Positions 28,878 to 31,008 of a stretch of 39,694 nucleotides of DNA are shown one piece after another. The translations under genes and the position numbers were made by a program. Every line of letters begins with the position of its first letter. Positions within the stretch are counted from its first letter, which is position 1. This stretch comes from Clostridiales bacterium (GTDB lineage Bacteria; Bacillota; Clostridia; Christensenellales; Aristaeellaceae): NCBI GenBank assembly GCA_016930575.1, contig JAFGGL010000064.1, positions 1 to 39,694 on the forward strand, written 5' to 3'. The notes beneath the pieces are model-generated. The model searched no databases and was not told where the DNA came from. It saw only the letters and a program-made list of their open reading frames with translations.

Positions 28878-29146
28878 AATCTTTTAGGGCTGTCCGCCCC
28901 TATTTCCACTCGGTTTCATTGTCGTAGGTTTTACTATCGTTTACCTGCTCTGTGAAACCTCCCAACTCCGGTTCGTTAGCCGCTATACGGCTGTGCCACA
29001 CAGGGCACACACTCGCCTTCGTTGCCCCCGATCAGGGGCAGTGCCCCTGAACCCCACATCAAAAGCCGCGCGACGCGCGGCTTTTATGATGGGTCAAGGG
29101 CAATCGCCCTTGTCGGGGTTATAGGGGTGAAATCCCTAAAACCTCG
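28878..29146. repeat. Convergent intergenic region with several hairpins
   Basis: The 269 bases between thpR and the thioredoxin-like gene hold no gene but several stem-loops: TGTGCC/GGCACA near 28992-29008, AGGGGCA-G-TGCCCCT (29034-29048), a terminator (29061-29085) and AAGGGC-AATC-GCCCTT (29096-29111). The 11-base sequence GGGGTGAAATC occurs at both ends, at 28871-28881 and 29124-29134, in direct orientation. It could be a small non-coding insertion or just stacked terminators. Confidence 0.6.
29061..29085. terminator. Bidirectional terminator between the mre and ars-like operons
   Basis: AAAAGCCGCGC (29061-29071) pairs perfectly with GCGCGGCTTTT (29075-29085) across a 3-base loop. The A and T tracts let it work for both converging operons. 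Outer bases (CCACATC / GATGGG) extend the pairing imperfectly. Confidence 0.9.
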
Positions 29147-29593
29147 TCAGTCCTTCGCGTTGCGTACGCTCCGGATGGCGTCGGTGGCCTGCGCGGGGGT
29201 GAGAACGCGGCCGGAGGAGACGACCCTGCCGTCCACGACGAGCGCGGGGGTGGACATCACGCCGAAGGCGGCGATGGCGGCCATATCGGAGATAAGTTCC
29301 ACCGTGTCCTCCATGCCGAGGGATTTGAGCGCTTCCTGCGCGTTGTCCGCCAGCTTGTGGCAGTTCCTGCAGCCGCCGCCCAGCACCTTTACAGAGCTTT
29401 TGTGTTCTTCTCCGGGTGCGCAGCAATCGTCGTCGCAGCAGCAACAGGAATCCGTGTCCGTCTCCCCGGGCGCGCAGCAGTCGCTGTCGCCGTTGCAGCA
29501 GGGTTCGGCTTCCGCCTTCTCGGTTACGCAGCAATCCTTGTCGTCGCAGCAGGGTTGGTTTGCCGTTTGCCTTTTGAAATGGAACAATGCCAT
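29147..29593 (-). CDS. Thioredoxin-like protein with N-terminal Cys-pair repeats
   Basis: Two parts are visible. Residues 1-60 hold 14 cysteines, arranged as CCDDKDCC, CCNGDSDCC and CCCCDDDCC blocks separated by short linkers, often CAPGE. Residues about 65-148 are a small thioredoxin-like domain (redox-active disulfide protein type) with Cys75-x-x-Cys78 in GGGCRNCHKL and the cis-Pro loop MSTPALVVDG. I take ATG at 29593 because AAAGG lies a proper distance upstream; ATG at 29602 would touch the site directly. It is the last gene of the arsR-permease operon. The Cys/Asp repeats look like a soft-metal or arsenite binding region; this role is inferred. Confidence 0.85.
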   Translation of the reverse strand: MALFHFKRQTANQPCCDDKDCCVTEKAEAEPCCNGDSDCCAPGETDTDSCCCCDDDCCAPGEEHKSSVKVLGGGCRNCHKLADNAQEALKSLGMEDTVELISDMAAIAAFGVMSTPALVVDGRVVSSGRVLTPAQATDAIRSVRNAKD

Positions 29594-29612
29594 AGTTTTC
29601 ATCCTTTCGAAT

Positions 29613-30617
29613 TTAAAGTATCAGCGTTTGAATTGCGTTGAAGAAATAACCCACGAGGATAATGCCGGCGGTGCAGATGCCGATGAACAGCGCCAGAAGC
29701 TTCGGTTTCACGGCCTTGCGCAGCATGATGATCGACGGCAGCGAAAGCGTGGTGACCGCCATCATGAACGCGAGGATGGAGCCCAGCTGTGCGCCTTTCC
29801 CAAGCAACGCCTCCGCGATCGGGATGGTGCCGAAGATATCGGCGTACACCGGTACGCCCACGAGCGTCGCAAGCACGACGCCGAAGGGGTTGTCGTTTCC
29901 CAGGGCCGTCGTGATCCACGCTTCGGGTATCCAGTTGTGGATGACCGCGCCGACGCCCACGCCGATCAGGATATAGGGAAACACTTTTTTGAAGGTCGCG
30001 GCCAGCTGTTCCCTGGCGTACCGCAGCCGGTTTCGCCTCGTCAGATCGGGGGAGGCGATATCCACGCTTCCGGCCGTGAGGATGAAACTCTCCACGTACT
30101 TTTCCATGTGCAGTTTTTCGATGAGCGTGCCGCCGATAACCGCGACGACCAGCCCGACGATCACGTAGATGATCGCCACGTTCGCGCCGAAGATGCTCAT
30201 GAGCAAAAGCAGCGAACCCAGATCGACCATCGGCGAGGAGATCAGGAAGGAAAACGTCACGCCCACGGGCAGCCCGGCCGAGGAAAACCCGATGAACAGC
30301 GGGATGGACGAACACGAGCAAAAGGGCGTGACCGTGCCAAGCAGCGCCGCGACGACGTTCGCGCCGACGCCGTGGAAGCGGCTTAGGATTTTTTTGCTGC
30401 GCTCCGGCGGGAAGTAGCTCTGGATGTAGCTGATGACGAAGATCAGCAGGCATAAAAGCAGCGTGATCTTGATCACGTCGTACAAAAAGAACTGCAGGCT
30501 GCCCGTCCAGCGGCTGGCCGTGTCCAGCCCGACGCCTTCAAGCGACGCGCGGATCAGCGACCGCAGCCAGTCCATGCCCAGTAGCTGCCGTTGGATGAAG
30601 TCCCAAACGCTTTGCAT
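29613..30617 (-). CDS. ArsP/DUF318-type permease
   Basis: Polytopic membrane protein, 334 residues, with about eight to ten hydrophobic segments and the family hallmark TPFCSCSSIPLF (Cys100 and Cys102), followed by GLPVGVTFSFLISSPMVD and, in the second half, GVPVYADIFGTIPIAEALL. Members of this family export methylarsenicals or are placed in metal-resistance operons; the exact substrate is not readable. ATG at 30617 lies one base after the arsR stop, so the two are coupled. The thioredoxin-like gene follows after about 19 bases. Confidence 0.88.
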   Translation of the reverse strand: MQSVWDFIQRQLLGMDWLRSLIRASLEGVGLDTASRWTGSLQFFLYDVIKITLLLCLLIFVISYIQSYFPPERSKKILSRFHGVGANVVAALLGTVTPFCSCSSIPLFIGFSSAGLPVGVTFSFLISSPMVDLGSLLLLMSIFGANVAIIYVIVGLVVAVIGGTLIEKLHMEKYVESFILTAGSVDIASPDLTRRNRLRYAREQLAATFKKVFPYILIGVGVGAVIHNWIPEAWITTALGNDNPFGVVLATLVGVPVYADIFGTIPIAEALLGKGAQLGSILAFMMAVTTLSLPSIIMLRKAVKPKLLALFIGICTAGIILVGYFFNAIQTLIL

Positions 30618-30618
30618 A

Positions 30619-30942
30619 TCAGGCGTCCCCGCATGCGCAGCCGGCGGAGCAGGCGGATTCGGTTTCCTTCGTCGTCGTCAGCGTTTTCAAATAATCGACC
30701 GCCTCCGCGCTGCCCCCGGCGCTGATGCGGTAATGCGCCCACTTGCCCTCCTGCCGGTTGACGACGATGCCCGATTCGCACAGGATCTTCATGTGGTAGG
30801 ACAGGGTGGACTGGCCCATGGAAAGGAGCTCGAGCAACTCGCAGGCGCATTTCTCTCCGTCCTGCAATATCCCGATGATCTTCAGCCGGTTTTCGTCGCA
30901 GAAGGCCTTGAAGCGCTTGGCCTGCGCCGCGTAATCGTTCAT
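30619..30942 (-). CDS. arsR: ArsR-family metal(loid)-sensing repressor
   Basis: Winged-helix repressor of 107 residues from ATG 30942, chosen because GGAGGG lies 7 bases upstream; ATG at 30957 has no site. The recognition helix region is GQSTLSYHMKIL. A CxC pair in GEKCACELLELL sits where As(III)-sensing ArsR proteins carry their ELCVCDL motif, and the C-terminus adds CSAGCACGDA with three more cysteines. It should release its operator on binding arsenite, antimonite or a similar soft metal. It heads the operon and its promoter carries a long palindrome, consistent with autoregulation. Confidence 0.92.
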   Translation of the reverse strand: MNDYAAQAKRFKAFCDENRLKIIGILQDGEKCACELLELLSMGQSTLSYHMKILCESGIVVNRQEGKWAHYRISAGGSAEAVDYLKTLTTTKETESACSAGCACGDA

Positions 30943-30965
30943 ACGTAAACCCTCCATACATCAAA

Positions 30966-31008
30966 AAGTTTCGATATATAGAATACACTATATATCGAAA
31001 CTTGTCAA
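30966..31008 (-). promoter_or_regulatory. arsR operon promoter with 38-base operator palindrome
   Basis: On the minus strand TTGACA (plus 31003-31008), a 17-base spacer and TATTCT (plus 30980-30985) form a strong promoter. A perfect 16-base inverted repeat, AAGTTTCGATATATAG with its complement, spans 30966-31003 around a 6-base centre. It covers the spacer and the -10 box, so ArsR bound there would block polymerase. ATATATCGAAACTT half-sites are of the kind ArsR proteins bind. Confidence 0.9.

Follow-up and report, generated by a model that had tools for sequence, protein, structure and literature searches.

In bacteria that expel arsenite through the ArsAB pump, the small protein ArsD binds As(III) via cysteine ligands. 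It delivers As(III) to the efflux pump (PMC6205960). Another class of exporter, ArsP, acts on trivalent arsenicals that are methylated; anaerobic methylators have been proposed to make these compounds as weapons (PMC11653729). The ArsP of C. jejuni exports methyl-As(III) when expressed in E. coli (PMC6205960); thus, a dedicated partner is not strictly required and can at most improve export. The ArsR repressors of such systems have been divided into classes, and in an atypical protein, ArArsR, two of the three cysteines typical of type 1 are present (PMC11868830).

A thioredoxin of the TIGR00412 family, called redox-active disulfide protein 2, has already been reported in ars operons, where a role as a reductant was proposed (PMC2963123). 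The structurally characterized member of the family, MTH895 (PDB entry 1ILO), is a protein of 77 residues that consists of the domain alone. In ars operons of paddy-soil anaerobes, an Orf2 labeled as "thioredoxin family protein" is drawn with arsR, arsP, acr3, and arsM (PMC12124457); its likeness to the protein described here lies in the gene names of the figure legend. In the SAO system, redox selenoproteins are found in one operon with organometal handling (PMC13188914). We rate the thioredoxin family, its place in ars operons, and ArsP as known, and the variant with a cysteine tail as new: in the CC-licensed papers searched, no description of the tail or of its start motif was recognized.

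The operon and its cysteine-tailed thioredoxin

The window, i.e., the whole stretch of 39,694 nucleotides analyzed here from a Clostridiales bacterium, contains an operon in the order arsR-arsP-trx, with intergenic gaps of 1 and 19 bases (Table 1). The last gene, trx, has the domain of MTH895, to which it adds a tail of 67 residues with 14 cysteines.

Table 1. Features of the arsR-arsP-trx operon, with positions in the window.
Feature	Description	Position	Strand	Basis
trx	Thioredoxin-like protein of the MTH895/ArsE family with a cysteine tail; 148 aa and stop codon	29147..29593	-	
Start motif	MALFHFKRQ	29567..29593	-	Starts of relatives
Cysteine block	14 cysteines, Asp-rich, residues 15-58, cysteines all in adjacent pairs	29420..29551	-	
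Redox motif	CRNC, residues 75-78	29360..29371	-	
Thioredoxin-fold domain	TIGR00412/PF13192, mostly pLDDT above 90 in model	29150..29392	-	
arsP	ArsP_1 permease with PFCSCS motif	29613..30617	-	
arsR	Repressor of the ArsR/SmtB type with KCAC in the DNA-binding domain and CSAGCAC as C-terminal tail	30619..30957	-	
Probable ArsR operator	Perfect 16-bp inverted repeat overlapping promoter-like TTGACA-17-TATTCT	30966..31003	-	
Probable operon terminator	Strong hairpin downstream of trx (folded with flanks)	29061..29085	-	

The tail cysteines (residues 15, 16, 21, 22, 32, 33, 39, 40, 50-53, 57, and 58 in the 148-residue numbering) each adjoin another cysteine, and ten aspartates are interspersed among them. 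Beyond the tail, the protein has only C75 and C78, which form the C75-R-N-C78 motif of the second domain. With the window's 31 large open frames as background (1.49% Cys), the binomial probability of 14 cysteines in 74 residues is 5e-12, and Cys adjacency in the tail, 8 as compared with 2.9 in tail shuffles (P = 0.0008), is likewise too high; together, these tests exclude chance. The initial annotation, which had described a paired 14-cysteine tail mixed with Asp and fused to a CxxC domain, was right about the open reading frame, its coordinates, and the implied start at 29593. An AGGA sequence is located 8 nt before this ATG, and the same AGGA abuts an earlier in-frame ATG at 29602. The second ATG is the better start because of this spacing and because most N-extended relatives begin with M-x-L-F. 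The M-x-L-F and the basic residues in these relatives may constitute a membrane-contact peptide.

Tandem Repeats Finder detected no repeat array in the DNA that encodes the cysteine block. A frame artefact or CAG-repeat DNA was ruled out as the source of the tail by the TIGR00412 match in the same frame, by the lack of a tandem array, and by the conservation of the layout in relatives. The protein does not group with the metallothioneins, since no metallothionein model of Pfam or NCBIfam matched at E 0.01 and a thioredoxin domain follows the tail in the same chain. A plasmid search returned eight records, none of which spanned 80% of the query, and a single-protein scan of the genome contigs found nothing.

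The second domain matched the NCBIfam model TIGR00412 (MTH895/ArsE family thioredoxin-like protein) with 82.5 bits (cut-off 62; residues 71-138 of the translation, P0001), and the Pfam model PF13192 (Thioredoxin_3) matched the C-terminal part with 77 bits. By this family membership and the AlphaFold2 model, it is predicted to be a thioredoxin fold with a CxxC site. In the model, 76 residues, all in the domain, have a pLDDT of at least 90 and the tail falls mostly below 50; as the tail aligns poorly, these low values are no proof of disorder. 1ILO was the sole match in a PDB sequence search at E 0.01 and the best match in Foldseek (TM 0.79 by target length, 36% identity). Chains of ArsD appeared low in the Foldseek list, i.e., 3kgk at rank 33 (E 0.026) and 3ktb at rank 46. 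With an identity of 15-17%, the similarity to ArsD amounts to a resemblance of the thioredoxin-like fold and no more; furthermore, ArsD serves the ArsAB pump, whereas the operon in the window contains no arsA.

The permease next door, on the same strand upstream, had been called ArsP-like, and this is confirmed by a match of 212 bits to PF03773 (ArsP_1; cut-off 32.3). It could be assigned to no named NCBIfam transporter; SaoE and SO_0444, the best of these (models of SaoE and of Cu/Zn exporters), remained far below their cut-offs. As implied by the family name, it is presumably a permease for trivalent organoarsenicals. The repressor had been described as a CxC ArsR sensor. The CxC stands: the sequence KCACELL in the DNA-binding domain provides two of the three R773-type cysteines. 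The description needs correction in that the third position is a Leu, which places the protein outside type 1 (equivalents of Cys32, Cys34, and Cys37) and makes it resemble ArArsR, and in that three further cysteines are present within the last ten residues. Such a short cysteine tail is common in ArsRs of trx operons (for example, the window, L125, L145, and L128) and perhaps forms a second arsenical site. The core pattern of the inverted repeat in front of arsR occurs only once in the 2.35-Mb host genome; promoter-like sequences are no more numerous in the operon region than in shuffles (1 vs. 1.2), and the operators of relatives are unlike that in the window.

Tails, active sites and neighboring genes of relatives

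TIGR00412 proteins above the cut-off were found in 17 of 150 genomes of the host family, in 31 of 297 of the order, and in 226 of 398 of the phylum. The named relatives represent the 80 best among at least 574 confirmed matches, and the phylum loci are the best 30 matches from the 226 genomes over the cut-off. Among the matches listed, 148 distinct proteins have the CxxC, and 102 of them an extension of at least 22 residues. After cleaning, the N-extended set comprised 95 proteins: 74 named records, 20 from other genomes, and the window protein. One set of 95 contains L067 and not L048, the others the reverse, and the neighborhood set of 96 contains both; the window protein is always included. 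Seven entries (six distinct proteins) without CxxC among the 175 thioredoxin matches were left out of these counts, and the presence of CxxC in 95 of 95 is, therefore, true by construction; among the matches listed, 95 of 97 distinct N-extended proteins have it.

The tails measure 26-78 residues up to the CxxC and contain 0-14 cysteines among the matches listed, the window having the most; some are linkers of Ala, Gln, Pro, and Glu. At least three cysteines are present in 84 of the 95 tails and a CC in 78, whilst eight tails, again among the matches listed, have none. Over this set, the tails contain 422 cysteines in 4517 residues (9.3%), whereas the core after the CxxC contains 13 in 6388 (0.2%). 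When the starts are anchored on the Phe, a Met is found three positions before it in 90 of 95 and a Leu one position before it in 85 of 95 of the listed proteins, with lysines following. Sorting by motif yielded 72 proteins of an HVTDF type, mostly with four cysteines (CCCGGNC), 18 of an EYxTD type with 3-11, and five of neither type, the window among them (95 proteins among the matches listed). A tree broadly repeats these groups, although it is rough, with few columns and unsettled bootstrap; the window protein, with the highest Cys count, stands alone on a long branch, and its tail may thus have its own history. In an analysis of codons and positions in 56 of the 72 proteins, in which the cysteines at positions 0 and 2 are fixed by the anchor, the independent positions 1 and 6 were Cys in 80 and 77%, respectively, among the matches listed. 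The cysteine codons in the tails vary between TGC and TGT.

Among the best 80 of 574, the N-extended proteins are mostly from Clostridia; exceptions include a Collinsella and a Streptococcus as well as MAGs of Thermotogae and Succinivibrionaceae. The cysteine-tailed, mostly clostridial proteins of such operons, e.g., those of L125, L145, and L135, share the M-x-L-F start, the Cys-rich tail, the CxxC domain, and the arsP operon with the window. The other tailed relatives among the matches listed have 0-11 tail cysteines, often as CCCG, whereas the 14 in the window protein form CC pairs mixed with Asp. A search for the same architecture beside DUF318 permeases, as proposed in the initial annotation, showed that it recurs: a cysteine tail on a thioredoxin together with an ArsP_1 permease and a CxC ArsR. 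The tail in the window is an extreme case of a tail found in many clostridia, i.e., a variant and not a one-off.

Natural variants separate the parts of this architecture. Seven of the eight N-extended proteins without tail cysteines are encoded within 150 bases of arsP, and six of the eight are from the window's own family. The reading in the initial annotation, a metal(loid)-binding chaperone for the permease, is therefore supported in part: as a refutation, it had named homologues that have the same operon role but no Cys repeats, and 8 of 95 N-extended homologues are free of tail cysteines and yet in arsP operons. The basic role can do without these cysteines, and the repeats are an elaboration. 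Relatives without any tail also occur with arsP: of the 41 for which 1.2 kb or more of upstream sequence is available, 39 have it, and 23 directly follow it (among the matches listed; L041, L156, and L159, tailed proteins in which the CxxC search matched the tail, and the cut L132 are left out). The bond between thioredoxin and ArsP is, therefore, general and the tail an addition. Conversely, six distinct relatives have no CxxC; in five of them (L064, L071, L072, L074, and L075), CC takes its place at the active site. Two of the six, L064 and L050, are N-extended, and both keep tail cysteines. L064 (1402-1743) begins with M-K-L-F, has two CC pairs in the tail, matches TIGR00412 with 78 bits, and is located in an arsR-arsP-trx operon; this combination fits thiol binding better than plain reduction. 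In L050 (3624-3998), the tail contains four cysteines and the active site none, and its 5.7-kb contig has no arsP or arsR match; the same genome (G022) has a second copy, L034, with a Cys-free tail in arsR-arsP-trx. Together, L064 and L050 show that tail and redox site are separable in nature, which favors a binding role for the tail, whilst L050 indicates that the tail need not serve ArsP.

Neighboring genes were counted within 6 kb on the same strand in the 84 N-extended loci that span 5 kb or more (10 kb or more in 55), using HMMs built from the window, L135, and L174 genes; the gene behind the arsC-like HMM itself does not reach the NCBIfam cut-off (85 of 215 bits). Among the matches listed, arsP was found at 83 of these loci, arsR at 80, an arsC-like gene at 45, ferredoxin at 23, acr3 at 19, ccdA at 8, and arsM at 1. 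The sole locus without arsP, L131, begins 130 bases before the match. At 39 loci, including the window, no arsC-like gene was found within 6 kb, some of the loci being cut short. As arsP is nearly always present and the window and 38 other loci have no arsC-like gene nearby, ArsP is probably the usual partner. The distance between arsP and trx is at most 150 bases in 63 of the 91 loci with arsP among the matches listed; elsewhere, further genes intervene. Some loci are clear ars operons with Acr3, arsC-like, ferredoxin, CcdA, or ArsM proteins; according to NCBIfam, the L135 operon encodes a true ACR3 (386 bits) and the L174 operon an arsenite methyltransferase (357 bits). All 81 ArsRs read contain the CxC, and 83 of the 91 ArsP homologues read contain PFCSCS. 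At least two cysteines follow the wing in 61 of the 81 ArsRs, and 31 have a CC in the last 15 residues; there is a weak correlation between the numbers of tail cysteines in the thioredoxin and in the ArsR (Spearman 0.30, P 0.007, kinship ignored).

Several loci show additional features. A ferredoxin-like protein with a below-cut-off match to a DF-family (seleno)protein is encoded near trx in 25 of the 96 N-extended loci, and a ferredoxin-like gene is often positioned between arsP and trx (L135, 4158-4922; L130, L137, L043, and others). In L147 (5432-6613, 7588-7962), the Cys-tailed trx is followed by a gene for a CobW-family GTPase and a second, tail-less trx, with a desulfoferrodoxin gene farther away. 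The arsenite methyltransferase in L174 (3298-4095) itself has a CCC...CC block near its N-terminus.

In the host genome (2.35 Mb, 95.2% complete), Acr3 had no match, and neither ArsC nor ArsM was found above the cut-off: one match of 25.6 bits to ArsC reads as a low-molecular-weight phosphatase, and the best match to ArsM reached 51 of 263 bits. One ArsB-family (PF02040) protein exceeded the cut-off with 62 bits; there are no ars genes in its 4.2-kb locus, and we read it, from its sequence, as a probable general anion permease. A second full ars system was not found in this genome. Since Acr3, ArsC, and ArsM are all lacking in this sense, serving an ArsC is unlikely in the host. Electron donation to ArsC as the sole role was rejected for this organism, which has no ArsC over the cut-off and no arsC-like gene near the trx of the window. 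As the host has no genes of its own over the cut-off for arsenate reduction or methylation, we infer that the operon is aimed at a toxin from outside.

Possible roles of tail and domain

The explanation that we tentatively prefer, at a probability somewhat below even, is that the protein is a cytoplasmic partner of ArsP in an ArsR-controlled operon, with a tail that captures and a CxxC that relays or keeps reduced. The hydrophobic-basic start MALFHFKR would hold the protein near the membrane, where the flexible tail of vicinal dithiols may capture a trivalent arsenical, the likeliest being methylated or other organic As(III) in need of two thiolates. By thiol exchange, the CxxC domain could pass the arsenical to the Cys-Ser-Cys motif of the exporter ArsP and might, as a thioredoxin, keep the thiols of tail or exporter reduced. 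The need of MAs(III) for two ligands has been described (PMC11868830).

The best rival to capture and relay is a plain reductant, which we consider unlikely. The protein would be dedicated to passing electrons to the thiols of ArsP or to pentavalent organoarsenicals, with a thioredoxin-type ArsC as another acceptor in other species, and the tail would be redox ballast or a switch. Such a role agrees with the near-universal CxxC of the distinct N-extended proteins (95 of 97), with the Cys-free tails that keep their place in the operon, with the arsC-like, ferredoxin, and ccdA genes at 45, 23, and 8 of the 84 loci, and with the ArsC-linked redox role proposed for redox-active disulfide protein 2, alongside CcdA and thioredoxin genes (PMC2963123). 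However, it leaves the CC and CCC motifs of the tails unexplained and does not suit the 39 loci without an arsC-like gene, the window included, the lack of an ArsC over the cut-off in the host, or the six distinct relatives without CxxC, among which L064 is Cys-tailed in an arsR-arsP-trx operon. A soft-metal sponge is still less probable. In that case, the tail would buffer Cd, Zn, Cu, Hg, or As(III) in the manner of a metallothionein, without directed hand-over, and the permease would export such a metal or none in particular. The arsenic-type CxC of the ArsR and the occurrence of related tails in operons with ACR3, arsC-like, and arsM genes argue against it, even though Asp-rich CC pairs would suit the binding of thiophilic metals, the permease matches the Cu/Zn exporter and SaoE models below their cut-offs, and a second ArsP_1 gene of the host adjoins a gene for a ZnuB-like permease. 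That the tail is neutral and of low complexity, a mere linker from the start motif to the domain, is very improbable: the wide variation in length (26-78) and Cys number (0-14) and the Ala/Gln/Pro/Glu tails would be expected of a linker, but not the retention of at least three cysteines in 84 and of CC in 78 of 95 proteins, the Cys density of 9.3% as compared with 0.2% in the core, or the cysteine codons that vary while the residue stays.

A more specific version of capture and relay, in which tail and domain together constitute a dedicated metallochaperone for ArsP, may be considered, though with distinctly less confidence. A membrane-proximal arm of vicinal dithiols would collect trivalent organoarsenicals and pass them via the CxxC to the CSC of the permease, and clostridia would tune the capacity by cysteine pairs (0 to 14 cysteines). 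To our knowledge, no dedicated metallochaperone has been known for this class of permeases. Since the thioredoxin recurs, differs in its number of tail cysteines, and is mostly encoded close behind arsP, it is a natural candidate for carrying such thiol-reactive compounds through the cytoplasm to the pump. The 14-cysteine form offers the strongest case for a binding test, with the Cys-free relatives and the CxxC-free L064 as ready controls.

Further ArsP_1 sequences and a dispersed repeat in the host

Besides the gene in the window, the host has a second intact ArsP_1 gene (L195, on contig C28 of genome G000), the one beside the ZnuB-like permease gene, with FPVCECAI instead of PFCSCS. A fragment of an ABC ATPase gene is also located beside it; perhaps, the permease fold has been put to a use related to zinc here. 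Two short pieces of ArsP_1 are present on contig C2. Downstream of the operon in the window, at 29033-29054, there is a palindromic element, CAGGGGCAGTGCCCCTGAACCC, which recurs in the host. The CAGGGGCAGTGCCCCTGAACCC pattern was found at 16 distinct sites in the genome and at none in the backward control, as in a REP-like dispersed repeat, and two of its copies bracket both ArsP_1 pieces on contig C2.
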